From: a virus
IMG/VR virus record: IMGVR_UViG_3300013126_000084
Location: 1-39,577 of that record
Reading direction: 5' to 3' (one strand)
Length of the DNA: 39,577 nucleotides
Made by a program: the position numbers and the translations under genes. The notes beneath the pieces were generated by a model, which saw nothing but the letters and a program-made list of their open reading frames with translations, had not been told where the DNA came from and ran no database searches. The stretch's first letter is position 1. Each line of letters begins with the position of its first letter. Of this stretch, positions 5,266 through 34,809 are shown in pieces.

Positions 5266-5316
5266 CCACAAAGTTAACAAAGTCAACTACACTTTCTCAA
5301 TCAAATCAAACACTTA
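4891..5316 (+). repeat. Six-copy repeat matching the IHF consensus; candidate origin or control centre
   Basis: The core AATCAAnnACTTA occurs in the same orientation at 4900-4912, 4952-4964, 4998-5010, 5173-5185, 5237-5249 and 5304-5316. Each copy fits the known IHF consensus WATCAANNNNTTR exactly. The first two copies are identical over 22 bases and carry an A-run just 5' of the core, as strong IHF sites do. The whole 4700-5570 stretch has no gene, is very AT-rich and also holds two TTGACATTG boxes (4837, 5202). Phage and plasmid origins often combine IHF sites with AT-rich DNA. The origin role is inference. The repeats could also be iterons for a phage protein. Confidence 0.75.
5202..5229 (+). 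promoter_or_regulatory. Possible promoter inside the repeat array
   Basis: TTGACA (5202-5207) and TATATT (5224-5229) are 16 bp apart, and the -35 context is again TTGACATTGTAAA. The -10 box touches the repeat unit at 5228-5249. No gene follows for 340 bp, so it might prime an RNA across the region or be a decoy site for the regulator of this promoter class. Confidence 0.4.
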
Positions 5317-5355
5317 ATAAAAATACACGCCTCTTGACAATCCACCCACTAACTA

Positions 5356-5374
5356 GACAAAGTTAACTTCGTGA
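5356..5374. promoter_or_regulatory. Near-perfect palindrome around GTTAAC
   Basis: ACAAAGTTAACTTCGT is symmetric around GTTAAC with a single mismatched pair. It is the only complete palindrome of a half-site, CACGAAGTTAAC, found several times elsewhere in the window (for example 6391-6402 and 33455-33466, and in reverse at 4794 and 5078). This suggests a dimer binding site. Confidence 0.4.
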
Positions 5375-12727: not shown

Positions 12728-12957
<230 letters not shown>

Positions 12958-12974
<17 letters not shown>

Positions 12975-14109
12975 ACAAAGAGTCACGAAGTCCCACATAG
13001 CGATAATGCGTAGCAAACAGTTCTGTATGTTTGCAGGGGTGTTATCGGTGGGCAAAGTAATCTTTACTGACGACATACCAACGGCATGCACCAATGGTCG
13101 TGATGTTATGTATAGCCCTGACTTCATCAAAACTCTAGATGATAAGGAGTTGAACTTTGTCGTGCTACATGAGGCTTTACACAAAGTATATCAACACATG
13201 CACTTGTGGCAAAAGCTATTCAAAGAGAATGGTCAACTTGCTAACATGGCGGCTGACTATGTTGTTAACTATGCAATACATGAAGCTGATGAACATAGTG
13301 AAATTGCTAAACGACCTGACTCAGCGTTGTTTGATATTCATTATGCAAACATGACAACCAAGCAAGTATTTGACATGCTGAAAAAAGATAGTCAGTTTAT
13401 TTCTATACGAGCAGGGCATGATACACATGATTGGGAAGGTGCTGAAAGTCTGTCTGATAAAGAAGTTAAACAGACTGCTAAAGAGATTGACCAAGCGTTG
13501 CGTCAAGGTGAAATTATCCGTAGCAAGATGCAAGGTAACAAGAACCGAAGTATAAACGAAATACTTGAACCTAAAGTAAATTGGCGTGAGCAGTTGCGTG
13601 ACTTTGTCAATGCCACCTGTCGTAACAAAGATAGAACATCATGGAAACGACCACACAAGCGTTTCATTGGGCATGATGTATATATGCCTAGCATGGTGGG
13701 TGAAACCATAGGTAAGATTGTGGTTGGTATTGACACATCAGGTTCTATTGGTCAACAAGAACTTAATGAGTTCTTAACAGAAGTTGTAGCTATATGTGAT
13801 GATGTATCCCCATCAAGTATAGAGTTGTTGTATTGGGATACTCATGTAGCAGGACATGAAACATACAATCAAGGTGATTATAGTGCCTTGGTTCAGTCAA
13901 CAAAACCTGCAGGGGGTGGTGGCACGACAGTTGGTTGCGTCAATCAGTATATCAAAGATAAACGCATCGAACCTGAAGCTATCATTATATTAACAGATGG
14001 TTTTGTTGAGAATGACTTTGGTGGTAATTGGGAATACCCAACACTATGGGCTATCACTACTCGACATATCACGTCGCCACATGGCAAGACAATTCACATT
14101 GATAACTAA
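12958..14109 (+). CDS. Metallopeptidase-like plus VWA-domain protein (DUF2201 type), partner of the MoxR ATPase
   Basis: The third of three in-frame ATGs is chosen because GAGGAG lies seven bases upstream; an upstream extension would read the GAA repeat as poly-lysine. The N-terminal domain has HExxH at residues 71-75 (HEALH) followed by NMAADYVVN (about 96-104), as in the DUF2201 metallopeptidase-like domain. The C-terminal half is a VWA-like domain with a metal-site motif DTSGSIG at 259-265, a GGGGTT turn (319-324) and TDG at 346-348. DUF2201 proteins are typically encoded beside MoxR ATPases. Whether the peptidase site is active, and on what, is unknown. Confidence 0.9.
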
Positions 14110-17283: not shown

Positions 17284-17432
17284 ATGAGTATAGTGAAGAG
17301 TTTAAGTTATGGTATGAGAGATTTTTTCTACAAAGCCCTAGACTATGTGCATTAAAGTATGACGATGAGAAGATGTGGGAAGCATGGAAAGCAGGTTACA
17401 ACCAAGCAAAAAGAGATTTAGACAATGCCTAA
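17280..17432 (+). CDS. Small hypothetical protein (50 residues)
   Basis: It starts in an ATGA overlap and ends eight bases inside the polymerase gene. The product is helical and aromatic (EFKLWYERFFLQSPRLCALK, then MWEAWKAGYNQAKRDL). The WEAWKAGYNQAK motif is common near the end of small phage proteins of unknown role. Confidence 0.68.
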   Translation: MNEYSEEFKLWYERFFLQSPRLCALKYDDEKMWEAWKAGYNQAKRDLDNA

Positions 17433-19296
17433 ACTAATCACGTTAGACTTTGAAACATACTATGATAAAGAGTATGGGTTAAAAAAGTTTACTACCGAAG
17501 AATATATTAGAAATGAGAAGTTTGAAGTTATAGGTGTTGCAGTCAAGGCTGATGGTGTAACTAAATGGGTATCAGGCCCTTATACAGAAATTAAAGCTTT
17601 TCTTAATAGCTATAACATGCATGAGCACTTTGTGCTAGGACATAACATGAAGTTTGATGCCGCCATTCTTTCATGGCACTACAACATTTACCCCCTAGGT
17701 TTGTTTGATACTATGAGTATGGGGCAAATCTTACATGGTTTAACTGAGTCAGTATCATTAGCTAACCTGTCTAAGTTTTATGGTATAGGGGAAAAAGGAA
17801 CGGAAGTATTAGATGCTTTAGGTAAGCGACGTGTAGATTTTATGTCAAACGAAATGTGCTCTTACGCTAAGTATTGTATGAATGATGTAGAACTTACCTA
17901 TGAATTATTTACAGAAATGAAAGATAAGTTTACTGCACCTGAGATGAAGCTTATCGATTTAACTATACGTATGTTTACAGAACCTAAGTTAGAACTTAAT
18001 AAAGGTTTATTACTACGACACCTCCACGAAGTTAAAGAAGCTAAAGAAAAGCTACTAGCTACAGTGTGTGTAGAGGCTATTGCTTTACCCGCAGGAACAG
18101 ATAGAACTACTGTTGATAAAGAAGTTTTAATGAGCAACCCTAAGTTTGCAGAGTTACTTTTGCAACAAGGTGTAAATCCACCTATGAAAATAAGTTCAAC
18201 CACAGGAAAACTTACTTATGCATTTGCTAAAACAGATGAACAATTTAAAACTTTATTGGAACATGATAATCCATACGTTCAAGCGTTGGCGGCTGCTCGC
18301 ATCGGGAACAAGTCGACGATTGAGGAAACAAGAACAGAAAACTTTATTCAAATAGCTAACAGGGGTAAATTACCCGTTCCACTAAAGTATTCAGGGGCAG
18401 TCGTATCCCATCGATGGTCAGGCGTTGATGGGATTAACTTGCAGAACCTACCAAGAACATCTGAGCTACGTCGAGCTATATGTGCACCTAAAGGATATAA
18501 GATTGTAGCATCTGACTTAAATAATATTGAGTTGAGGTTAGCGTATTGGTTTGCTAAATCACAGAGAAAGTTACAGTTGATTAAAGAAGGTGTGGATTTA
18601 TACATACAGTCAGCATCAGACATAACAGGTATTAAATATGAAGAAGTAAGCAAAGATTTACGATACATTTTTAAAATAGTTAACTTATCAGGTATCTATG
18701 GAGTAGGTGCTGATAAAATGCAATCTATATTAAAACAAGGTGGTGTAGATAAAGAAATTAGAGTAGTTAAACATATTGTAAATGCATATAGAAAAGCTAA
18801 TCCTGAATTAATTAAAGCATGGGCAGATGCAGGAGAAATGTTAGAAGCCGTTCGTGCAGGGCAAGTGTATAGTATGGGTAATGGTGGGATTATTACAAGC
18901 GTTCCACATGAAGGCATGATGAAACCAAATGGTATGTTGTTAGGATTACCTAATTTGCGTAAATTAAGAACAGAACGTGGAGAGTCATGGGCATATGATA
19001 AGTTAATGGGTAAAACTCTAGTTCCTGAATATATACATCCATCTAAAACCTTTCAGCGTTGTATACAATCGTTGGCTCGTGATATAATAGCAGAACAACT
19101 AATTCAAGTATCGAAAAGATACTCTGTTGTTATGACTGTGCATGATGAGTTAGTTATGTTATGTAAAGATACTGAAGTAGATGAATGTAAATCCTACGTT
19201 CAACAATGTATGACGACTGCTCCAACATGGTGTAGCGACTTACCTTTAAATTGTGAGATAGGTGTTGGTGATAATTATATGGATGCTAAAAGGTAG
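17425..19296 (+). CDS. Family A DNA polymerase with 3'-5' exonuclease
   Basis: This 623-residue replicative polymerase shows the DEDDy proofreading motifs: LDFETYY (D8, E10), GHNMKFDA (D78) and YCMND (Y150, D154). The polymerase half shows motif A in VASDLNNIELR (D364), motif B RYIFKIVNLSGIYG (R413, K417, Y425) and motif C VVMTVHDELV (H573, D574, E575). There is no 5'-3' exonuclease domain, as usual in phages. The residue equivalent to E. coli Phe762 is leucine (L421). Polymerase, nucleases, helicase and primase-helicase lie on one strand in order, giving a nearly complete replisome. Confidence 0.97.
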   Translation: MPKLITLDFETYYDKEYGLKKFTTEEYIRNEKFEVIGVAVKADGVTKWVSGPYTEIKAFLNSYNMHEHFVLGHNMKFDAAILSWHYNIYPLGLFDTMSMGQILHGLTESVSLANLSKFYGIGEKGTEVLDALGKRRVDFMSNEMCSYAKYCMNDVELTYELFTEMKDKFTAPEMKLIDLTIRMFTEPKLELNKGLLLRHLHEVKEAKEKLLATVCVEAIALPAGTDRTTVDKEVLMSNPKFAELLLQQGVNPPMKISSTTGKLTYAFAKTDEQFKTLLEHDNPYVQALAAARIGNKSTIEETRTENFIQIANRGKLPVPLKYSGAVVSHRWSGVDGINLQNLPRTSELRRAICAPKGYKIVASDLNNIELRLAYWFAKSQRKLQLIKEGVDLYIQSASDITGIKYEEVSKDLRYIFKIVNLSGIYGVGADKMQSILKQGGVDKEIRVVKHIVNAYRKANPELIKAWADAGEMLEAVRAGQVYSMGNGGIITSVPHEGMMKPNGMLLGLPNLRKLRTERGESWAYDKLMGKTLVPEYIHPSKTFQRCIQSLARDIIAEQLIQVSKRYSVVMTVHDELVMLCKDTEVDECKSYVQQCMTTAPTWCSDLPLNCEIGVGDNYMDAKR

Positions 19297-19299
19297 ATA

Positions 19300-19974
19300 A
19301 TGAGTGGATTAAAAACATGGTCGTATTCTAGTGCCACAACTTTCGAAAAGTGTCCAAAGCAATATTACCATTTATATGTTGCTAAAGATATAAAGCAAGA
19401 CCCGAACACTGAACATTTCTTATATGGTAACGAAGTGCACAAAGCTGCTGAGTTATATGTAAGCAAAGCTAAACCTCTGCCAGAGAAGTTTGAAATGTTT
19501 AAGCCAACGCTTGACAAATTAATAGCTATTCCAGGCGATAAATATTGTGAATATAAACTAGGCTTGACAAAAGAGTTAGAACCTTGTGACTTCTTTGCAC
19601 CTAATGTGTGGTGGCGTGGAGTTATTGACTTACTAGTTATTAACCCTGAAACTAAATTAGCTACTTTAATTGATTATAAAACAGGCAAGTCTAGCCAATA
19701 TGCTGATACTAGACAGCTATCTTTATTTAGTGTAGCTATATTTAAACACTTTTCAGATATGACTAAAATTAAATCGGGCTTAGTTTTCTTGGTGTCTAAA
19801 GAGGTTCTTAAAGAAGATTATACGATAGACAAAATAGATGAAATGTTTGAAGAATGGGGTAAAATAACGCATAGGATAGATACTGCTCATCAGTCAGGGG
19901 TTTTTAATGCAGTCCCAAACTTTGCATGTAGGAAGTTCTGTCCCGTTCAATCATGCTCACATTGGGGAAAGTAA
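19300..19974 (+). CDS. Cas4/RecB-like PD-(D/E)XK nuclease with a probable Fe-S cluster
   Basis: The 224-residue enzyme begins with WSYSSATTFEKCPKQYYH, the usual start of this superfamily. It has H47 in GNEVH, D110 in RGVIDLL, D125 and K127 in IDYKTGK, and Q139 in RQLSLFSV. One cysteine near the N-terminus (C18) and three near the C-terminus (C209, C213, C218) match the four-Cys iron-sulfur site of Cas4 and AddB-type nucleases. It likely acts as a single-strand exonuclease in recombination or end processing. It follows the polymerase after three bases. Confidence 0.9.
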   Translation: MSGLKTWSYSSATTFEKCPKQYYHLYVAKDIKQDPNTEHFLYGNEVHKAAELYVSKAKPLPEKFEMFKPTLDKLIAIPGDKYCEYKLGLTKELEPCDFFAPNVWWRGVIDLLVINPETKLATLIDYKTGKSSQYADTRQLSLFSVAIFKHFSDMTKIKSGLVFLVSKEVLKEDYTIDKIDEMFEEWGKITHRIDTAHQSGVFNAVPNFACRKFCPVQSCSHWGK

Positions 19975-20249
19975 TGGCTAAAGAAAGAGATTATCAAAAA
20001 GAAAACGAATACAAGTCACAACCTGATCAAATTAAAAAACGAGTGGCTAGAAATAAAGCTAGACGAATGATGGTAAAAGCTGGTAAAGTATCAAAGGGTG
20101 ACGGTAAAGATGTAGATCATATTATTCCTTTAAGTAAAGGCGGTAGTAATACCCCTAGCAATATGCGTATTAGAAGTAAAAGTGCTAATAGTTCTTACCC
20201 ACGCAACAGCGATCATTCGATGAAAAGGAATGTTACTAAAAAGAAATAG
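19974..20249 (+). CDS. HNH endonuclease (free-standing)
   Basis: The 91-residue product starts in the TAATG overlap with the Cas4-like gene. The basic N-terminus is followed by VDHIIPLSKGGSNTPSNMRI (residues 47-66), which holds the DH pair, the GG turn and the Asn of the HNH nuclease fold. Such small HNH proteins can be homing-type nicking enzymes or packaging helpers. A position amid replication genes, with a structured leader right after it, favours a selfish element. Confidence 0.87.
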   Translation: MAKERDYQKENEYKSQPDQIKKRVARNKARRMMVKAGKVSKGDGKDVDHIIPLSKGGSNTPSNMRIRSKSANSSYPRNSDHSMKRNVTKKK

Positions 20250-20286
20250 ATCAACCGCTAGGCGTGAGTGCGGTAAAACCACGTCA

Positions 20287-20332
20287 ACTAATAACAGAGA
20301 CCTCATGATAATAAAAACCTCTGTGTATTAGT
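20287..20332 (+). ncRNA. Long stem-loop in the helicase leader
   Basis: ACTAATA-ACAGAG pairs with CTCTGT-G-TATTAGT, giving 13 pairs with one bulged G around a 19-base loop. It lies in the 143-bp gap between the HNH and helicase genes, just before a terminator. Farther upstream, ACCGC/GCGGT and GGCGTG/CACGTC (20254-20285) can form alternative short stems. This looks like a structured RNA leader. Confidence 0.6.
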
Positions 20333-20338
20333 ATTGTA

Positions 20339-20376
20339 GGCGCGTCACTACCTCTCTCGGTGGCGCGTCTATTTTT
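20339..20376 (+). terminator. Terminator-like hairpin just before the helicase ribosome-binding site
   Basis: GGCGCGTCACT pairs with GGTGGCGCGTC over 11 pairs, including three G-T wobbles, around a 9-base pyrimidine-rich loop, followed by TATTTTT. It would stop rightward transcription, yet the helicase TAGGAG starts only six bases later and no promoter fits in between. It may be a regulated attenuator. Confidence 0.72.
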
Positions 20377-20392
20377 ATTATTAGGAGATTGC

Positions 20393-21955
20393 ATGGAAGT
20401 ATACAAAGATAAAGCGTTAATAGTAAATACAAAACGCCCTGAATTAATTATAGATAAGATACCAAAAAGTAAAATCGTTAAAACATACGATAATGGTGTC
20501 ACCCAAGTAGTTGTAAATTGGGGGATAGATGAAGTAATTACTTTATCTGACATGAAAGTTAAAAACCCACCTTCTCCTATAACACGTGACTACAACTTTC
20601 CAGGAATACATAAACCTTTTGAGCACCAAAAAACAACAGCTGAATTTTTATCTGCTCATAAACGTGCATATTGTTTAAGTGAAGCTGGAACAGGTAAAAC
20701 ATCTGCTGTTATATGGGCAGCTGATTACCTTATGAATGTAGGTAAAATAAAACGCATGCTTGTAGTATGTCCTCTATCAATCATGCAGGCGGCATGGCAA
20801 TCGGACTTTTTTAAAACTGCTATGCATAGGTCTGTAGGTATCGCTCATGGCTCTGCTGAAAAAAGAAAGAAAGTATTTGCAGAAAATACAGACGTAGTAA
20901 TTATTAATTACGATGGTATAGAAATTGTAGAGAAAGAAATTAAATCTGGCGGTTTTGATTTAATAGTTGTCGATGAGGCTAACTATGTCAAGACTGTCAC
21001 GACACGTCGCTGGAAGTCATTAAATCGTGTAGTAACACCTCAGACATGGTTATGGCTTATGACAGGAACACCCGCTGCTCAATCACCAGCTGACGCATAT
21101 GGACTGGCTAGACTTGTGAGCCCCGCATCCGTTCCAAAATATGCAGGAACTTTTAAGGATATGGTAATGCAAAAAGTCAGCCAGTTCACCTGGGTGCCTA
21201 GATTCAATGCACAAGATATTGTGTTTAAAACATTACAACCTGCTATTCGATATACTAAAGAAGAATGTTTAGATTTACCTGATGTGTTATATACAACACG
21301 AGAAGTCCCACTAACTCCACAGCAAGATAAGTATTATAAAAAACTTAAAAAAGATAGATATATGCAAGCGGGTGGAGAAGATATTACCGCTGTTACTGCT
21401 GGTGTAGTATTAACAAAACTACTACAAGTAAGTGCAGGGGCAGTTTATTCCGATACAGGTGAAGTTATTGAATTTGATATATCTAATCGTATGACAGCAC
21501 TAAAAGAAATTATTGAAGAGGCAAGCCATAAAGTTATTGTTTTCTGTCCATTCCGTCACAGTATTGAAAAGATTATGACTGAGTTACATAAAAATCATAT
21601 AACTTGCGCTGCTATACATGGTGACGTATCTATGAATAGTCGTTCAGAAATATTTAAAAACTTTCAAGAAACCAAAAATCCACAAGTATTAGTTATACAA
21701 CCTCAAGCTGCATCACATGGGGTTACACTCCACGCAGCTAACGTAGTTGTATTTTGGTCACCTGTGATGTCTGTTGAAACATACATACAATGTTGTGCAC
21801 GTATGGACAGAGCGGGACAGAAAAATAAGATGACCGTAGTGCATTTACAAGGTTCGCCTGTTGAACAAAAAATTTACAAAATGTTGCAAAGTAAAATTGA
21901 TAACCACGTTAAATTAGTTGATCTTTATAAAGAGGAGTTTGGCGATGCCTTATAA
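20393..21955 (+). CDS. SNF2-type superfamily 2 helicase
   Basis: The ATG at 20393 follows TAGGAG; earlier starts would overlap the terminator. The 520-residue protein shows the Q-motif-like HQ at 78-79, Walker A SEAGTGKT (96-103), DEAN (194-197), MTGTP (about 225-229) and motif VI in QCCARMDRAGQ (near 466). This is the Swi2/Snf2 set, as in phage replication or recombination helicases. It probably remodels forks or recombination intermediates together with the Cas4-like and VRR-NUC nucleases. Confidence 0.93.
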   Translation: MEVYKDKALIVNTKRPELIIDKIPKSKIVKTYDNGVTQVVVNWGIDEVITLSDMKVKNPPSPITRDYNFPGIHKPFEHQKTTAEFLSAHKRAYCLSEAGTGKTSAVIWAADYLMNVGKIKRMLVVCPLSIMQAAWQSDFFKTAMHRSVGIAHGSAEKRKKVFAENTDVVIINYDGIEIVEKEIKSGGFDLIVVDEANYVKTVTTRRWKSLNRVVTPQTWLWLMTGTPAAQSPADAYGLARLVSPASVPKYAGTFKDMVMQKVSQFTWVPRFNAQDIVFKTLQPAIRYTKEECLDLPDVLYTTREVPLTPQQDKYYKKLKKDRYMQAGGEDITAVTAGVVLTKLLQVSAGAVYSDTGEVIEFDISNRMTALKEIIEEASHKVIVFCPFRHSIEKIMTELHKNHITCAAIHGDVSMNSRSEIFKNFQETKNPQVLVIQPQAASHGVTLHAANVVVFWSPVMSVETYIQCCARMDRAGQKNKMTVVHLQGSPVEQKIYKMLQSKIDNHVKLVDLYKEEFGDAL

Positions 21956-22433
21956 CACTCCTGAAAAAGAAAAAGAATATCAAAAAAAGTGGCGTTTAAA
22001 AAACAAAGTTAGATTAAAGGCATATCAAAAAGAATGGAGTCTTAAACATCCAGGGCGAAAGAATGAACATAGATATAAACATGTTAAAAATAACCCTGAA
22101 AAATGTTTAATTGCAGGAGCTAAACAAAGATGTAAAAAAACAGGCTTAGAATTTAATATAGATATTTCTGATATTACGATACCTATTGTGTGTCCCATTT
22201 TAGGCATACCTATTATTAAAGAAGTAACAGATAAATCAGGCCCCAAAGCTACATCCCCTTCTATTGACAGGATTGATAACAGTAAGGGATATATAAAAGG
22301 TAATGTGCAAGTTATAAGTAACAAAGCTAACACAATGAAAGGTAACTCAACACCTGAAGAACGAATAAAGTTTGCTTTATGGGTCTTAGCTACTGATGGC
22401 AAAGAGATTTATGAAATACGAAAAATTAGTTGA
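21945..22433 (+). CDS. HNH-type endonuclease, second free-standing copy
   Basis: The ATG at 21945 follows AGAGGAG and overlaps the helicase by 11 bases. The 162-residue product has a Lys/Tyr-rich N-terminus (TPEKEKEYQKKWRLKNKVR) and ends in SPSIDRIDNSKGYIKGNVQV (about 113-132) and ISNKANTMKGNSTPEE. That is the usual signature of phage HNH-like homing endonucleases with a zinc-finger-like CP..G. unit (CPILGIPI). With the HNH gene at 19974 it brackets the helicase gene. Confidence 0.82.
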   Translation: MPYNTPEKEKEYQKKWRLKNKVRLKAYQKEWSLKHPGRKNEHRYKHVKNNPEKCLIAGAKQRCKKTGLEFNIDISDITIPIVCPILGIPIIKEVTDKSGPKATSPSIDRIDNSKGYIKGNVQVISNKANTMKGNSTPEERIKFALWVLATDGKEIYEIRKIS

Positions 22434-22457
22434 CATTGTAAATAGATGTGCTATACT
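22430..22457 (+). promoter_or_regulatory. Sigma70-type promoter for the probable SSB operon
   Basis: TTGACA (22430-22435) and TATACT (22452-22457) are 16 bp apart, and the context TTGACATTGTAAA matches the other early promoters. It overlaps the end of the second HNH gene. No conserved stem-loop follows, which separates this unit from the earlier ones. Confidence 0.8.
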
Positions 22458-26993: not shown

Positions 26994-27177
26994 CGGAGTA
27001 GATTATCAAATATTGTGGGCAGAGTTTAAACCTGGTTCATCTATGTTTATTCCTGCTGTAGATACTAAATCAGCTATTGCTGCAATTACAAGAGAAAGCA
27101 AGCGTTTAGAATTTGAATTTGCTCACAAGATTGTTATTGAAGACGGTATACAAGGTATACGAGTCTGGCGTTTATAA
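26983..27177 (+). CDS. Small hypothetical protein, last rightward gene
   Basis: The 64-residue product uses a GTG start inside the end of the primase gene and has no clear ribosome-binding site, so coupling is likely. An ATG at 27043 would remove 20 residues. The sequence GVDYQILWAEFKPGSSMFIP, then SAIAAITRESKRLEFEFAHK, is a compact alpha-beta fold. I do not recognise the family. Its stop TAA overlaps the last codon of the large leftward gene. Confidence 0.62.
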   Translation: MFTNGVDYQILWAEFKPGSSMFIPAVDTKSAIAAITRESKRLEFEFAHKIVIEDGIQGIRVWRL

Positions 27178-30100
27178 GCCGCCTTGTTTTCTTAGGTTTT
27201 GAATACGTCTGTCTATACCATCATCAACTTGTTGTTCGTGCCCTAGAATATCTTGACGAGCAGCTTCAATTCTATCAAGTTCAATTTTCTTAGTTTGAGG
27301 AGTCCATTGACCTCTATCTTTAGATGCAATAACTTTATTTTCCCATTCTCTAAGGTTTTGTAAATCTCTTCTAATAGTAGCTAATTCTTTACGTAAATCA
27401 ATTAGTGCTGCTTTGTTATCTTTGTTTTGAAATTCAATAAACTTATCATAATCTGTAGACTTATATCTATTTGCTGATTGAACCGCTGCATCTACAAGTT
27501 GAGTTAATTCATAGAAGTCATTAATGTTTCTAGTGTTTTCTTCTTTAGATAAAAATTTACTCATGTTAGGTATTTGTAAGAGCGTTTCTCTAATAGTTTT
27601 AGCAGGTAATATTTCACCTCTCATATTAGCAATAATACTATTAGTAAATAGTCCTACTAACATACTCGTTGATGCTAACCACCTATTCATAAAATGTTGA
27701 ACAGAAATAGGAGAAACTTCAAATGGAGTATCTTTAGTTAAGTCTGTAACGGCTCTTGCAAACTGTGAGGTATATTTATTACTATACTGTAGTTCTGCTT
27801 CTAAATCTTCTTGACTGCGACCTTTTAAAGGTCTTCCAGTTACAAAGTCAAAGTTTAATGACTGTTCAATAAAGAAAGTTAGATATGATGGTAATGCAGA
27901 AGGCACCGCTAACGCTCTCTTAAATGCTACTGATAGTGCTTTTTTCATTTTTTCTGAATCTTCACTCTGTTCAATATATCTGTTATATAAATGCTCAGGC
28001 AATATTTTAAAGAAGAAAGTCAATATGTCCCCACGAAGTGGCAACTTAAAGCCACCTGTTTCAGGTATTACAATAGCGTTATCTCTATCTTTAGGATCTA
28101 ATTTTTTATAATCATCATCGTCTGCATTTATAGCTACAATAGCTAAGCCAACCATTATAACTTGAGCACCATTTAAAAGAAGTCGTCTTAGCTGCACTAA
28201 TTTACTATCGTTGGTAATATCACTAAACATAATTGTGCCATATGAAATATTCATAGCTTGTAAGTTAGCATTAACGAATACGGCATTTTGACGAACTAGA
28301 TTAACGGCAGAAGAAGAACCTGTTCTACGGAAATTAATAATTTCTTCCGCTGCATAGGTAGCTCTAGCTTTATTACCTGTTTCTAATAATACTTGAGAAT
28401 ATACTGCTTGACGAATAAGGTTGTCTGAAACCATACCTAAAAATTTAAACCCTTTAAGTAAAGCTTTAGGAGGAGCTAAAACATATTCAATTAACTTGCC
28501 CATTTTGGTAGCTTCTTTAACTTCTTTCATACCGTTAATATCAATTCTATCGTATTCAGAATTAAAATCACGTTTACCTGTAATACCACGAGCAGTTAAA
28601 TATTTTCTAGAACTACTAATACCTAATGGTGTATATATAATCTCTTTCATTACTTGTAGTGGCACCATAATAGAAATATTTACGCCCGATGCAAACATAG
28701 CATTAAACATATCCATAGGTATTTGAGCTAAGTTAAATAAAGGTTCTAATACAATTTGTGCACGTAAGAATTCATTAAAAGGCCTTGTAAAAGCAGCACC
28801 TGGAGCCATAGTAGCAGGTTCCATACCTGTGAAACCATCTACCATACTTTCGCCATCATATCCTTGAAATTCATATTTAACTACTTTGCCATCTTGCCAA
28901 ACACCTACTACATTACCTGTAGCAGGTCTACCTGATTTTAATATTTTAATATCATCAGGTAAAAGCTTAGAATAATATTTAATTTTTTCTTGAGCAGCTT
29001 TATTATTAATAGATTTTTTAATTGTATATCTAGCCCAACGCTCCATGTTATCGAACACGTTGTGCACAGGTTGATAACTACCTTTTAATCTCTTTTGTTT
29101 AGCAACGTCTAATAAACCTTTTGGGTATTCATTAAGAGCTTTACCTGCTTCTACTTGTTTATCTCTAAAGAAAGGAACGTAATCAATAATATCTAATAAA
29201 TCGTCAGCTTCTTCTCTTGTAAAAAGACCATTTTCTACTGCTACGTTCATTAAACGAGATCTATTAATATTCCAAACTTTTTTAAGTTTTTTAAGTTCTG
29301 GAACAGTAGTAAAGAATTTTAACCCACGTTTTATTTCTGCTGGGGTTTGATGAACAAGTTTATACTTGTCAGCTTCTTTTCTTGCTTGTGCAGTTTTACC
29401 ATCAGCAAGACGTTTTATTACTTTTCTTTGTAATTTTTGATTAAATTTTATTAAATCTGCAGAGCGTGCTGATACAAAAGCAGCGTTACCATATTGATAC
29501 ATTTCATATTCAGAAACACCATATTTTTTAGCTAAAGCTGTTAATTGTTCTCTGATAGTAGACATACTATTAGATAGGTCTTTTATAACAAAACTAAAGG
29601 ACTCTGGGTCATATTTGATGCCACCATGAACCATCCACATGTCTGCTATATAATCAGCGTTAACTGCTTGAGATACACGAGATGCTTGAATCATTCGAGC
29701 AATATCTTTTTCAGGAATGCCTTGTTTTCTAGCTGCTATAATCATTTTATTATTTTGAGCAGCGTCAAATGAGAAGAAATTTTTTCTAAAGTCTGCTATA
29801 AGTTCATCTGTTGTTTTTAGTGGAGCTTCTACAAAACGTTCACCTAAAGTAGGGAAACCTTTTTCTTCTTTACCAACAGTGCCTGATTTTTTAAGGTCTT
29901 CATCTAATTCTTGTTTAGATGCACGAGCAAATAGTGGTTGTCCAGCCATGGCTTTTTCTTTCATAGCTGAAGTTACTGTAAAGCCTATTTGTTTACCTAC
30001 TTTTTCATCTTCAGGACGATCTTGACTTGGTGGTATAAGCTCAACTGTTTCTAATTGAGTGCCGCCTAACTTCTTAATAAGTTTAGCTGCATATCTAGGA

Positions 30101-33100
30101 ATGTAGTGATCATAGAACTCAACCATTCCTTGAGCAGGTAATTTAAGATCCCCTGCATCCCAGCCATCTGTTTCACCTACTTTAAGTGAGCGAATTTTAT
30201 TAGCAAGACCACCTACATAATCTTCTAAATCTAAGTCACGAATTTTTTCTAAAGTACGTGATCTACCACCACCATCTTTTAATGTAGCATAAATATTAAA
30301 GGTGCCATCTTCATTTCTAGTTCCAAATACTTCATCAATTCTTTCTGCCTTACCGCCTTTAAATGCAGCTTGTTTACCATTAACAAAAGCCACTTTATCG
30401 TATCCACGTTCTGCAGCAAATCTAATGATATTTTTAAGAACTAAATTACTCCATGCCTCAGTATCTTGTACAAAAGGGCCTTTATCGATTTTGCCAGATT
30501 GAGATAATGCTTGGTTTTTAGATTCAAGGTCATTTATTTTTTGAACAAGTTGTTCTTCTTCATATAATAACTTGTCTAGAGTATCTTGATTTTTACGATA
30601 CTGTTCAATGTTTTTTTCAACAATAGGTTCATTTAATATGTCTCTAATTATTTTACTGTCTATTTTATATCCAGAAGGGGTTGTCTTTCCTTCAATGTCA
30701 TTATTTAAAACACTTTTAATATAATCATAACGTGTCATGTCATAACCACGTTCAGTAGCATCCATAGGTCCAACTCGTTTACGAACTTCCGTATCAACAA
30801 TATCTGCAAATTGATTTCTAAAATTTATAAGGTTAAAAATTTGATTTGATAGTTGTTGTTTAGCATCTTTAAATTGGTATACCTTAGTAATTATATTATC
30901 GTATTCTTTTTCTTGCTCTTTAGTAAAAGTTCTTTTAAAGCCCCAATCTCCTGGAACAAATTGAGCAATTTTCTTTTCATCAATCTTATATTTTTCTGCT
31001 AGTTCTTTAATATGTTTTTTACGAAGTTTCCTAGGAGCCTGTGCCCAATCAGATTGCATTTCTTCTACAAATAAAACAATATTACCTTTAATATCTGTAC
31101 GTGCATTTACACGATAGTGAGCTATTGGATTAGAAATATCAGGCCAATGTTGATGAGAAAACACTGTTCCCTTTTTAGGGTTTTGTAGAGCAATTACAAC
31201 TTCAGTGTATTTTTTATCGCCACCTTCCATAGTCCAATCTAAATATCGAGTTCTTACATTTTCATGATCTTCATCCCATTGATCAGCAAGTTCATCTCTA
31301 ACAATATCTGCTCTTTCATATAATTCTGCAATATACCTATCATGAATTTCTTCAGCATATGATGCTATCCCCGCACTGTTTTCTTCATCTACAACTTGTT
31401 GAGCTTCATCTTCTGAAAAATAATAATTATCATCTATGGGGCTTGTTGGATAACCTTCCATATAAATTCTATAACCTTTATTACCATCAGCGTCAGTTAC
31501 ATTTTCTTCTTTATAATAATAAGGAAAGTCAAAATTGTCCGCAGCTTCTTCATAAGCTTGTGAATAAATATCATCTTTTTGTGAGTCTATATAGTCATCA
31601 ACGCCTTCTTGTATCCATGCTTCTTTATCTTTATCAGAGTAAGAAGAACCTTCTCCTTCGCCATACATATATTCATTTACTTTAGTGCCATTCTCATTAA
31701 GGTAATTTAATATATCTTGCTTATTAAATTTCTCTGATTTGTTTAGCTCTAAAAATTCTAATAGTCCTGAGAACTCTAACTCATCACGTTTAACACCTGC
31801 TTCAGATGTTTTGCTATTGAGCCAATTAACCCACTGTTCACCTGATTGTATAGATACATTATTTTTAAATTGGGCATTAGTAATCACACGAGATAGAGCT
31901 GAATAATAGGTAGGACGAGGAGCACCAATTTCTTCTGCTGCCATAGTAAGGTCTGGTTCAATACCTTTAACTTTACCTGCAAGTGACATCCGCACAGAAT
32001 GCTGCACCATATCACGAATATCATCAGCAGTAATCTTATTAACATCCCAACCATAACCTAGTTTAGATAGGAACTGTTTAATATAACCTATAATTTGACG
32101 AAATATAGAATTGTTAGGAGCAGTCTCACCAATCTTAGCAATAACTTCTTGCATAAAATTATCACTATTTTCAGCTAACTCAGGATATGTTTCTAAAGTA
32201 CTATCCCAAGCTGCTTTTAATTCTTTATCTGTAAGATGGTTTTGTTTGATTTGTTTAATTACACGTTTGTAGTTAGCAGTGCCTAACATACCTTCTAAGC
32301 CATAGTGCACACCAATTTCATGGAGAAGCATGCGTGGAGCATTTTCTTTTGTGATACGATTAGCTATAAAGTAGCCTTTACCTTTATAGTAAACAGCTTT
32401 AGTAGTAGGACTTACTTGCCCTATTTCAGGTGGTAATTCAGACGCATCTTTTAGGAAATTTAATAACCCACGTTGTTTAGCTAAACGAACATTCTTGCCA
32501 TATTGTTTTTGAAACTCTTGTTCAATAGTATCAGGTGTTTCACCTGTTTCTTGAATTTGACCACGAGCTTCTAGTGGGCCTTCTTCTTTTGTTTGTCTAG
32601 CTAAAAACTCATCTTGTAAATCTTTAAACTCATCTTCAGATAAGGGCTTTTCTTTTTGAGTGATTGTCTCACCTTCTTTTTCTAGTGCTGCTACTTCTTC
32701 AGGAGTCATTCGCACTTTATATTTATTGCGTAGACTTTCTGCTAATAAGTAATCACGAGCATGCTGATTAAGTTCTTGACGTTCAGCATCAGGCACATCT
32801 TCATTTCTTAAATCTTCAATGAGATAGTTAGGTTTATCTTTTAGAGTGCTTAAGATGTTTGCTAGATTAGTTGATTGATCGACAATCGGATACTGAGTCT
32901 TTTTAAGATTAGCATATTTAGCACGTTCTTCACGTTCTAACTTAGCACCTTCTTTAATAAGTTCATTGGTCTCTTGAGTTTTAAACCAATCCACAAAGCT
33001 ACGTCTAGCAGCCCTACGTTGTTGTGGATTAGGGTCGTTAAGTAGTTCTTGAATATCAAGTAGTCGTTCACCACCTTTTAATGTTTCAGGTTTAGCCCGT

Positions 33101-34809
33101 GCTTCTGGACCCTTTAGTGCAACGTCGCCTGCGCCTTCTCCCGCTTGATCGACTCGAGTAACACCTCCACTGATATCAGTTGTAGGTCCGTAACGTCCTG
33201 AAGCTCCACTGGGAGTGCCATATTTTTGTCCTCCAAGTACTGCATCGCTAATTCTAGTTGTTCCAAAGTCAATTCTTGCATCTGGAGCCTCTTCTTTCTG
33301 TTGATCGAGTAATGATGTAAATGTATTTACGGCATCTTCATTAAGCTTACCAGGATAAGCCTCTAGTGTTTTTTCTACTAAGTCTCGGCCTTCTGGTGTA
33401 CTTGCATCTACACCTTTTAATACTTTAAACGCATTAGAATTCTTTTTGATACCCCACGAAGTTAACGTAGTATCATCAAGCGGACCTACAATAATAGGTT
33501 TACCTACTTCAACAGATGGTCCACCCACAACGTTAAATAATTTACCTTGATCAGCGGTAGCTCCTTCTTGAGATATAGTAGGTAGATTGATGTTAGCTAG
33601 TTTAGCGGCTTTCTCTGCTTTAACTCTGTTAATTTCGTCAGCTTTCTCTTCCGCATCTTTTAAAAACTGACGTTTTAATACGTCTCTTGATGGGCGTTTT
33701 TGTTCAGTGCCTGGAACAGCCTCTGCCTCAGGTTTTTCTTGTTCAGTTTTAAATTCTCTATATTTACTGTAAGCGTTTGCTGCAGAACCTATACTAGAAC
33801 CAACAGCCAACCCTGCCCATCCAGCTTCAAATAATTGTCGTTTAGACTCTTCAGTTGTTATATCTCCACCAGCTTGAATTATTTCTGCCGCTTGTTCAAA
33901 CATTTCAGTAGGCGCTTCAGTAATACCTTTAGCTACACCTACTCCCGCGGCTTTACCTACTTCTTTAGCTACAGCAGTTTTAACTCCTTCTCCCGCGGCT
34001 TTACGTTTGGCTATTTCCTCAGTTATTTTACCTAACATGGCTTTTTGACCAAACTTACTACCAATACCACCTACAAATTTATCCACAAGGAAACCAAGAG
34101 GTGCTGTAATAGCTGCCCATGTTCTAGCTTGATTAGGGTCTAACTCTTCAGGAGCTTTTTTAACAAGCCCTTGAGTTTCCATAAAATGACCGTATTGTTG
34201 AAGACCATAAGAACCTATACCAGCAATTGTAGCTGCAACTGGAGCCGCAATTGGAGCAGCTGGTCCTGATATCATTGCAGCGCCTGTACCTACAAGTAAC
34301 GAAGTTAAAAGAGGCACAGCCATTTCTGGACCTGATTTAAGAACTTGTTCTACAATATAAGATGGGACTTGAGCACTTGCAGGTAGTAAACCTTTTTCAT
34401 GAGCAATACGATTAATATCAGTTGCAGTTAATGTAGGTGTAACAGGTTGTTCTGCTTTAGTTTTAATCTCTTCCATTTTAGCTGCAGCAGCTTCTAAATC
34501 ACCACGATCTTTTGCAGAACCTAATTCATAACCACGTTTAATTCCACCAAAAGAAGATACACCTTCTTTTAAAGATTCTTTAGCACGAGCTAAAAAGCCC
34601 ACATCTTCAGGTTTAGGTTGTGGTTTAATACTAGGAGGTTCTGTGAGATTTTGTTGTGGTTGAGTAGTATCTACTGGAGTTTCAGTAGCTAATTCAGCTT
34701 GTGCAGCTTCAACCTGTTTGATATAAGGAATTAATTGAGATACTGATTCAGTATCTCCTTCGGCATCTAATTGTTCTAAAACTCGGTAGAGTTCGTTTAA
34801 ATCTTCCAT
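27172..34809 (-). CDS. Giant multidomain virion protein (2545 residues) with metallopeptidase motif
   Basis: This product is far longer than ordinary phage proteins and resembles the polyvalent proteins or internal virion proteins injected with the DNA. Hydrophobic segments lie near residues 160-205 (LLTSLLVGTGAAMIS). A zinc peptidase motif HEIGVH is at 830-835. A segment near 1480-1580 (GGKAERIDEVFGTRNEDGTF; GMVEFYDHYIPRYAAKLIKK) and VTSAMKEKAMAGQPLFA near 1615 resemble parts of large polyvalent protein-associated domains. The C-terminal part (about 1850-2300) with NEFLRAQIVLEPLFNLAQIP and a membrane helix near 2215 is like LPD38-type ends. The start has no ribosome-binding site and follows the upstream gene by three bases, so expression is probably coupled. 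Domain names are from memory. Confidence 0.85.
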   Translation of the reverse strand: MEDLNELYRVLEQLDAEGDTESVSQLIPYIKQVEAAQAELATETPVDTTQPQQNLTEPPSIKPQPKPEDVGFLARAKESLKEGVSSFGGIKRGYELGSAKDRGDLEAAAAKMEEIKTKAEQPVTPTLTATDINRIAHEKGLLPASAQVPSYIVEQVLKSGPEMAVPLLTSLLVGTGAAMISGPAAPIAAPVAATIAGIGSYGLQQYGHFMETQGLVKKAPEELDPNQARTWAAITAPLGFLVDKFVGGIGSKFGQKAMLGKITEEIAKRKAAGEGVKTAVAKEVGKAAGVGVAKGITEAPTEMFEQAAEIIQAGGDITTEESKRQLFEAGWAGLAVGSSIGSAANAYSKYREFKTEQEKPEAEAVPGTEQKRPSRDVLKRQFLKDAEEKADEINRVKAEKAAKLANINLPTISQEGATADQGKLFNVVGGPSVEVGKPIIVGPLDDTTLTSWGIKKNSNAFKVLKGVDASTPEGRDLVEKTLEAYPGKLNEDAVNTFTSLLDQQKEEAPDARIDFGTTRISDAVLGGQKYGTPSGASGRYGPTTDISGGVTRVDQAGEGAGDVALKGPEARAKPETLKGGERLLDIQELLNDPNPQQRRAARRSFVDWFKTQETNELIKEGAKLEREERAKYANLKKTQYPIVDQSTNLANILSTLKDKPNYLIEDLRNEDVPDAERQELNQHARDYLLAESLRNKYKVRMTPEEVAALEKEGETITQKEKPLSEDEFKDLQDEFLARQTKEEGPLEARGQIQETGETPDTIEQEFQKQYGKNVRLAKQRGLLNFLKDASELPPEIGQVSPTTKAVYYKGKGYFIANRITKENAPRMLLHEIGVHYGLEGMLGTANYKRVIKQIKQNHLTDKELKAAWDSTLETYPELAENSDNFMQEVIAKIGETAPNNSIFRQIIGYIKQFLSKLGYGWDVNKITADDIRDMVQHSVRMSLAGKVKGIEPDLTMAAEEIGAPRPTYYSALSRVITNAQFKNNVSIQSGEQWVNWLNSKTSEAGVKRDELEFSGLLEFLELNKSEKFNKQDILNYLNENGTKVNEYMYGEGEGSSYSDKDKEAWIQEGVDDYIDSQKDDIYSQAYEEAADNFDFPYYYKEENVTDADGNKGYRIYMEGYPTSPIDDNYYFSEDEAQQVVDEENSAGIASYAEEIHDRYIAELYERADIVRDELADQWDEDHENVRTRYLDWTMEGGDKKYTEVVIALQNPKKGTVFSHQHWPDISNPIAHYRVNARTDIKGNIVLFVEEMQSDWAQAPRKLRKKHIKELAEKYKIDEKKIAQFVPGDWGFKRTFTKEQEKEYDNIITKVYQFKDAKQQLSNQIFNLINFRNQFADIVDTEVRKRVGPMDATERGYDMTRYDYIKSVLNNDIEGKTTPSGYKIDSKIIRDILNEPIVEKNIEQYRKNQDTLDKLLYEEEQLVQKINDLESKNQALSQSGKIDKGPFVQDTEAWSNLVLKNIIRFAAERGYDKVAFVNGKQAAFKGGKAERIDEVFGTRNEDGTFNIYATLKDGGGRSRTLEKIRDLDLEDYVGGLANKIRSLKVGETDGWDAGDLKLPAQGMVEFYDHYIPRYAAKLIKKLGGTQLETVELIPPSQDRPEDEKVGKQIGFTVTSAMKEKAMAGQPLFARASKQELDEDLKKSGTVGKEEKGFPTLGERFVEAPLKTTDELIADFRKNFFSFDAAQNNKMIIAARKQGIPEKDIARMIQASRVSQAVNADYIADMWMVHGGIKYDPESFSFVIKDLSNSMSTIREQLTALAKKYGVSEYEMYQYGNAAFVSARSADLIKFNQKLQRKVIKRLADGKTAQARKEADKYKLVHQTPAEIKRGLKFFTTVPELKKLKKVWNINRSRLMNVAVENGLFTREEADDLLDIIDYVPFFRDKQVEAGKALNEYPKGLLDVAKQKRLKGSYQPVHNVFDNMERWARYTIKKSINNKAAQEKIKYYSKLLPDDIKILKSGRPATGNVVGVWQDGKVVKYEFQGYDGESMVDGFTGMEPATMAPGAAFTRPFNEFLRAQIVLEPLFNLAQIPMDMFNAMFASGVNISIMVPLQVMKEIIYTPLGISSSRKYLTARGITGKRDFNSEYDRIDINGMKEVKEATKMGKLIEYVLAPPKALLKGFKFLGMVSDNLIRQAVYSQVLLETGNKARATYAAEEIINFRRTGSSSAVNLVRQNAVFVNANLQAMNISYGTIMFSDITNDSKLVQLRRLLLNGAQVIMVGLAIVAINADDDDYKKLDPKDRDNAIVIPETGGFKLPLRGDILTFFFKILPEHLYNRYIEQSEDSEKMKKALSVAFKRALAVPSALPSYLTFFIEQSLNFDFVTGRPLKGRSQEDLEAELQYSNKYTSQFARAVTDLTKDTPFEVSPISVQHFMNRWLASTSMLVGLFTNSIIANMRGEILPAKTIRETLLQIPNMSKFLSKEENTRNINDFYELTQLVDAAVQSANRYKSTDYDKFIEFQNKDNKAALIDLRKELATIRRDLQNLREWENKVIASKDRGQWTPQTKKIELDRIEAARQDILGHEQQVDDGIDRRIQNLRKQGGL

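Follow-up and report, generated by a model that had tools for sequence, protein, structure and literature searches.

A gap between two genes of an IMG/VR virus record holds a real, conserved and uncatalogued phage RNA, the core of which is formed by a pseudoknot and a hairpin that we call P3. The record comprises 39,577 bases and is referred to as the window throughout. We regard the RNA structure itself as near certain. What might such an RNA do? The reading that we favour, tentatively and as one that falls somewhat short of probable, is that of a non-coding module with anti-Shine-Dalgarno-like loops, to which a terminator would give its 3' end.

A structured RNA between an HNH gene and a helicase gene

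The modelled RNA starts 2 nt behind the end of the stop codon of an HNH gene and precedes an SNF2-type helicase gene. Its elements and the neighbouring genes are given below; alignments A1 and A2 and the corresponding covariance models R1 and R2 are described in the following section, and loci of related viruses carry L numbers.

17425-19296: family A DNA polymerase gene, near the gap.
19300-19974: PD-(D/E)XK exonuclease gene, near the gap.
19974-20249, + strand: HNH gene, 91 aa, upstream of the RNA (phrog_4590, E 2.7e-20; Pfam HNH PF01844, 24.0 bits at a cut-off of 21.4).
20252-20333, + strand: RNA core (pseudoknot and P3 hairpin), span of the covariance model (R1, which has the window sequence itself in its training set, 78.8 bits, E 7.7e-14; R2, 67.5 bits).
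20254-20258, + strand: ACCGC, 5' strand of pseudoknot helix S1, covarying with 20270-20274.
20261-20266, + strand: GGCGUG, 5' strand of pseudoknot helix S2, pairing with 20280-20285.
20267-20269, + strand: conserved unpaired AGU between the S2 5' and S1 3' strands (A16, G17 and T18, columns 16-18, invariant in the 36 A1 rows, GAGT having been part of the regular expression that selected those sequences).
20270-20274, + strand: GCGGU, 3' strand of S1, supported by covariation.
20277-20279, + strand: conserved unpaired AAC ahead of the S2 3' strand (A26, A27 and C28 invariant in A1; also demanded by the selecting expression, yet retained in the protein-selected L279-L301).
20280-20285, + strand: CACGUC, 3' strand of S2, supported by covariation.
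20287-20332, + strand: P3 hairpin of 13 pairs, a single G bulged out, loop variable, found by folding; changes on both sides at all 11 modelled pairs in A2.
20300-20304, + strand: pyrimidine motif ACCUC on the 5' side of the P3 loop; CCU[UC] is frequent in the P3 interiors of relatives.
20336-20372, + strand: terminator hairpin, 14 pairs in the minimum free energy (MFE) fold, loop ACCTCTCTC (RNA ACCUCUCUC).
20370-20379, + strand: U-rich terminator tail, TATTTTTATT.
20382-20387, + strand: helicase Shine-Dalgarno sequence TAGGAG; the helicase ATG is at 20393.
20393-21955, + strand: SNF2-type helicase gene, 520 aa, downstream of the RNA (phrog_62, E 2.4e-102; PF00176 and PF00271).

The + strand of the gap segment folds at -44.0 kcal/mol, compared to a mean of -31.2 kcal/mol for dinucleotide shuffles (z -3.52), and beats 200 of 200 of these; the fold of the - strand is unremarkable by the same measure (z -1.02). 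The first-pass annotation had described much of the 3' part of this segment accurately. Folding reproduces its 13-pair stem-loop, the 11 terminator pairs that it named lie inside the 14-pair MFE hairpin with the T-run behind it, the TAGGAG of the helicase follows just past the terminator, and no sigma-70-like promoter turned up when the + strand was searched from the HNH stop to the helicase ATG, in line with its claim. The hairpin is absent from the output of our terminator scan, which is restricted to loops of 3 to 8 nt, whereas the loop here measures 9. Scans of the whole record with the covariance models yielded a single copy of the core.

Beyond the gap, an endonuclease-VII/HNH-like gene (21942-22433; phrog_3322, E 4.4e-35) follows the helicase gene and overlaps its end, and the top sigma-70-like site of the scanned region lies just past it (22430-22457, TTGACA-16-TATACT, 11/12). 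The open reading frame at 12859-14109 begins with a long lysine run, encoded by an A-rich stretch at about 12859-12960; probably its real start is downstream, or the A-rich stretch is a low-complexity artefact. A 2545-aa reading frame on the - strand (27172-34809) is exceptionally long for the record.

Two helices probably form one pseudoknot

Upstream of the helicase genes of relatives we found a common pattern, CCGC-AA-GGCGUG-AGU-GCGG-UAAAAC-CACGUC-A-hairpin-terminator, in which AA, AGU and AAC are conserved and unpaired. The first-pass annotation had proposed ACCGC/GCGGT and GGCGTG/CACGTC as two mutually exclusive short stems. Both stems are present; their exclusivity did not hold. The strands of S1 and S2 are four separate segments, arranged in H-type pseudoknot order (20254-20258, 20261-20266, 20270-20274 and 20280-20285), and the two helices use different bases. 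In a test with a pattern that fixed part of the core but put no constraint on two S2 pairs and most of S1, 92 stretches were recovered, 51 of them unique; both helices pair in 41 of the 51, neither in 5, S1 only in 3 and S2 only in 2. Because S1 and S2 share no bases, and because both of them pair and covary, a single pseudoknot is a better reading than two alternative stems. Most simply, then, judging from the sequences, S1 and S2 are the two helices of a single H-type pseudoknot, directly followed by the bulged P3. Covariation alone leaves room for the two helices to form at different times, and they may do so.

The R1 model was built from 36 sequences (A1) and includes S2 and P3 and leaves out S1; rows were admitted to A1 if S2 and the first five P3 pairs were paired, with no requirement on S1, and L159:1755 (coding, no P3) was excluded. 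R2, the broader model, rests on 57 sequences (A2, rows fitted to R1), from which the probable chance matches to coding sequence in L404, L432 and L433/L446 were kept out. R1 also matched sequences outside its training set, namely L062 (38.8 bits) and L280-L301. In A1, 95.5% of cells are paired compared to 80.7% in shuffles, and both sides have changed in 114 cells compared to 30.9; the corresponding values for A2 are 92.2% against 68.8%, and 294 cells against 83.2. By its number of pairs with any both-side change, 18, A2 does not stand out from the shuffles, which give 16.8 and attain 18 in 125 of 500 cases. S1 pairs in 93.1% of A1 cells, with both-side changes at 3 of 4 pairs, and in 81.6% of A2 cells, the lower value arising because a bulge in L280-like rows shifts the register. 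Lack of stem conservation in relatives had been named as grounds for rejecting the element; among IMG/VR relatives and by the covariance models, the helices recur with compensating changes.

S2 is found as GGCACG/CGUGUC, GGCAUG/CAUGUC, GAUAUG/CAUAUC, GGCGAG/CUCGUC, GGUAAG/CUUAUC and GGCUCA/UGGGCC. G-U pairs are common in this helix, with column pair 11-68 being G-U in 38 of the 57 A2 rows. In the clade of L280 (the protein-selected L279-L301), inspection by eye shows an outer S1 helix, absent from the models, that is rewritten from virus to virus and mostly pairs (CGUUGC/GCAACG, GAGUCA/UGACUC, AGCUAUA/UAUAGCU); one position of six is unpaired in each of L286, L280 and L301.

Several other explanations of the gap were set aside. 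An origin or other DNA element is disfavoured, as the frequent G-U pairs of S2 and the unremarkable - strand fold favour RNA. A frameshift or readthrough pseudoknot would call for a slippery sequence, and none conserved was seen by eye before the HNH stop, which is followed by in-frame stops. The potential leader peptide ATGATAATAAAAACCTCTGTGTATTAG within the window's P3 is not retained among relatives.

Occurrence and gene context

Searching IMG/VR with the helicase protein gave 203 related stretches, 80 of which were kept. The R2 core is present in 62 of the 80 loci picked by the window helicase alone, in 25 of 80 picked by the distant helicase of L220, and in 1 of 21 extra loci picked by the L122 helicase (only those not scanned earlier). 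Many of the R2-scored sequences also went into the models, and their scores are to that extent dependent on them; selection of the loci themselves was by protein. Among 16 virus records scanned with R2, 14 contain one copy. A weaker second copy (25.9 bits) was noticed at L178:2999-3101, about 350 nt past the first, each upstream of a small reading frame; at a stricter cut-off R2 retains the first copy only.

Is the RNA a companion of the HNH gene, as the first-pass annotation also considered? We tabulated both in those loci selected by helicase that extend 1.1 kb or more upstream of it, 141 in all, near-identical loci not being collapsed. HNH gene and element occur together in 74, the HNH gene alone in 65, neither in 2, and the element was never seen without the HNH gene. 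The RNA is thus anchored to the HNH stop (median 6 nt from stop to model start, range -15 to 37, 74 loci), and this part of the proposal stood; a dependence of HNH on the RNA did not, since 65 of 139 HNH loci are without it. In L312-L316, L336, L344 and L356 the HNH gene abuts the helicase gene with no gap at all.

The proposal of a dedicated helicase attenuator found no support. RNA and helicase are separated by 126 to 1706 nt, a distance that varies because other genes can intervene (L050-L052, L062, L282, L306, L359), the core occurs without a terminator (L279-L301, L116, L118, L178), and in L441 it lies tail to tail with an integrase gene on the opposite strand. What stands of the attenuator layout is the arrangement of a conserved RNA and an intrinsic-terminator-like hairpin before the helicase ribosome-binding site. 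Elsewhere the core precedes a terminase small subunit gene (L439) or terminase genes, with the large subunit further on (L407); it follows a primase/helicase gene and precedes a terminator (L411), or follows a tape-measure gene (L443). L176 and L177 have a terminator after the core, and in L176 plausible opposite-strand reading frames come after it, without PHROG match. In L118, L407, L437 and L439 the core occupies an apparent 5' leader position, often after a terminator. Given these varied contexts, the core is tied to neither helicase nor HNH as such. A different structure seems possible, by eye, after the HNH genes of L054, L055, L214 and L215, where the main core is absent: a mini H-type pseudoknot (AACGU-GUG-GCUCAA-ACGUU-A-UUGAGC; AACGU-UU-GGUCU-ACGUU-AC-AGACC), with a CU-loop terminator behind it.

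A stem of at least 12 pairs with a U-rich tail is found in 36 of 44 loci checked for a terminator; L116, L118, L178, L220, L280, L283, L289 and L355 are without one. Stem sequences differ from lineage to lineage, yet 32 of the 36 loops remain CU-rich. By this comparison of sequences, the pseudoknot-P3 core is the family, and the terminator, which the window's clade conserves, is a clade-specific extension. Inspection of the terminator-locus sequences by eye revealed no antiterminator pairing that is conserved. A promoter match on the + strand after the terminator appeared among relatives only in L057 (10/12), at chance frequency, and was not used. Just before the helicase ribosome-binding site, L279-L301, L305, L307 and L355 have a short hairpin without a U-run (e.g. 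GAAGCGG-ACA-CCGCUUUC); it holds the place that the terminator has in the window clade, and is seen also in L305 and L307, both of which are without the core.

Pyrimidine-rich loops resemble the anti-Shine-Dalgarno sequence

Of 46 P3 interiors, 40 contain CCU[UC], compared to 13.0 on average and 22 at most in 2000 shuffles (relatedness ignored); 15 contain CCUUUC, compared to 0.65 in shuffles, related sequences not being independent. Three loci truncated where the model ends (L301, L289 and L290) were excluded from this test; 6 of the 46 interiors are devoid of the motif. For comparison we used CCUCCUUUC, the 3' end of 16S rRNA, from which the tails of the hosts may differ. Fuller anti-Shine-Dalgarno-like P3 loops are CCUCCUUC in L410, L412 and L439, and ACCUCCUGCC in L441.

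Does the loop pair with a Shine-Dalgarno sequence in cis? In the window, the P3 loop at 20302-20317 and the segment 20372-20387, comprising the U-run and the helicase Shine-Dalgarno sequence, form an inverted repeat (88% of 16 nt, -12.4 kcal/mol). Across 30 loci, cognate pairing at -8.70 shows no gain over shuffled loops at -8.43, the value for non-cognate partners being -8.11, and the P3 loop matches the nearby start region only as well as shuffled loops do (a median of 54.5 of 100 shuffles as good). A role in sequestering Shine-Dalgarno sequences in cis is therefore unsupported; a role in trans is only inferred.

Relation to known RNAs

A search of the window against Rfam 15 returned no family at gathering score, and widening the limit to E 5 added just atoC and snR75. 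The atoC RNA (RF01733) match, at 22.8 bits and E 0.048, falls far short of the gathering threshold of 50, and it spans the terminator instead of the pseudoknot; what the two RNAs share is a terminator hairpin with a CCCUCCU-type loop. In L116 and L118, cmscan at E up to 1 reported tRNAs away from the core. In L415 it reported three sub-threshold sRNA matches; two of them, 5266-5313 and, on the other strand, 5288-5360, sit at the end at which the core starts. R1 gave one match at E 0.5 in ten whole named phage records and none in ten stretches of named phages, and R2 one match (16.9 bits, E 0.03) in twelve whole records, some of them also in the R1 scan; none is convincing. DNA similarity to named phages was found neither for the window region nor for L116/L118. 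Two patterns run against 84,980 bacterial and archaeal genomes, both fixing part of S1, had no match; the first was too narrow, with a fixed spacer, and the second still fixed the S1 GCG. No description of a pseudoknot-P3 RNA was found in open-licence PMC papers.

Among known systems, terminator-type riboswitches and attenuators likewise place a structured leader and an intrinsic terminator before the ribosome-binding site of a gene; unlike them, the phage RNA shows no mutually exclusive antiterminator, is not anchored to the downstream gene, and occurs without terminator and in 3' untranslated regions. The pistol ribozyme has an H-type pseudoknot followed by a hairpin, which is the element order of the phage core; the conserved letters differ, and neither this nor any other catalogued self-cleaving ribozyme was matched by covariance models in the window or the scanned relatives. 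The put antiterminators of HK022 consist of two hairpins near an early promoter; they too are phage RNA structures near terminators, whereas the core described here often follows a terminator (L118, L407, L437, L439) or has none. In type III antitoxin loci a pseudoknot is followed by a terminator and then a gene; there, tandem pseudoknot repeats accompany a toxin nuclease gene, whereas here a single copy lies beside an HNH endonuclease and an SNF2 helicase gene.

A precedent for the loops comes from alpha-r14 (cuckoo) trans-acting sRNAs, such as NfeR1 of Sinorhizobium meliloti. According to the passages of PMC10746234 on these RNAs, one conserved anti-Shine-Dalgarno motif, CCUCCUCCC, recurs in three hairpins with stems differing in sequence. 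The phage RNA may be built in a similar way, with hairpin stems that vary and loops that mostly keep anti-Shine-Dalgarno-like pyrimidines. The alpha-r14 sRNAs are host-encoded, and those passages describe no pseudoknot core; their motif is fixed, whereas the phage RNA has the looser CCU[UC], not in every locus, and has no Rfam match.

Discussion

How are these observations best accounted for? We favour a non-coding RNA with anti-Shine-Dalgarno-like loops over a cis-acting control element, which strikes us as a possible but doubtful explanation. As a cis element, the pseudoknot and P3 would together be an aptamer, with a metabolite, an ion or a protein of phage or host as its ligand; in the window clade it would switch the terminator and so attenuate the helicase in the manner of a riboswitch or leader. 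The conserved unpaired bases around a compact pseudoknot fit such a switch, as do a terminator 16 nt ahead of the helicase start codon with no promoter found between them, the 5'-leader-like position in L118, L407, L437 and L439, and the hairpins of other kinds ahead of the helicase in L279-L301. However, the RNA is anchored to HNH and not to a regulated gene, genes have been inserted between RNA and helicase in the loci listed above, the downstream integrase of L441 is convergent, a conserved antiterminator was not found, and the downstream genes have no common function. Partial attenuation of the helicase is possible within the window's own clade. Might the structures instead act on the message that precedes them, by blocking exonucleases or marking a cleavage site and thereby setting the stability of the HNH mRNA and of what lies downstream? 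The position directly after a stop codon in most loci, the retained terminator and the tolerance of many gene contexts agree with an mRNA 3'-end or processing element, yet this account leaves the conserved AGU/AAC and the pyrimidine loops unexplained, and 65 of the 139 HNH-bearing relatives manage without the RNA; we consider it distinctly unlikely.

A small self-cleaving ribozyme, suggested by the pistol-like element order and the bulge in P3, is less likely again. Compact pseudoknot, conserved unpaired bases, strong covariation and intergenic placement are what one would look for, and the weaker second copy beside the first in L178 may be counted with them; against this, no Rfam ribozyme matches at E up to 5 and no invariant cleavage-site motif was recognised. 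The passages of PMC10085705 that deal with a 2023 search report ten pseudoknot-type candidate motifs that were tested and showed no cleavage, so that structure alone is weak evidence for a ribozyme. Least credible of all, in our estimation, is that the RNA acts as a decoy for an abortive-infection system of the host, resembling a lone type III antitoxin pseudoknot. The layout of pseudoknot, terminator and gene matches such loci, yet the unit is single and not tandemly repeated, the downstream genes are not toxins, Rfam yields no match, and a related pattern (which fixed part of S1) found none in the 84,980 bacterial and archaeal genomes.

The non-coding RNA that we favour would in most cases reside in the 3' untranslated region of an early or replication gene, here HNH. 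The terminator would supply the 3' end of the RNA, and the pseudoknot would stabilise it or present it to a partner. The pyrimidine loops of P3 and terminator, similar to the 16S 3' end, may then act in trans by pairing with mRNAs at their Shine-Dalgarno regions, in the manner of the alpha-r14/cuckoo loops. Readthrough of the terminator would produce helicase mRNA, and the same hairpin would thereby lower the helicase level, as an incidental attenuation. We count in favour of this reading the covariation, the independence of context, the mostly single copy per record, the CU-rich loops and the alpha-r14 precedent. Counted against it are that no promoter of its own is evident and that the RNA begins 3 to 37 nt past the HNH stop in most loci, as well as its apparent 5' leader position in L118, L407, L437 and L439. 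Several lineages (L116, L118, L178, L279-L301) have no terminator, so that a released RNA is not general. The loops without the motif and the complementarity between P3 loop and start region, which is at the shuffled level, also speak against it.

An RNA core of about 80 nt with strong covariation thus extends across phages that differ widely in genes and G+C content, and conserved structured phage RNAs are rarely catalogued. It is conceivable, if on balance unlikely, that it represents a class of non-coding RNA that is widespread in phages and not yet catalogued, in which a pseudoknot stabilises a mimic of the 16S 3' end that competes for Shine-Dalgarno sequences and reprograms translation during infection. 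If the loops are anti-Shine-Dalgarno mimics, they would provide phages with a route to RNA-based control of translation; if the core binds a ligand or protein instead, the RNA would be a new switch whose terminator output can be exchanged.
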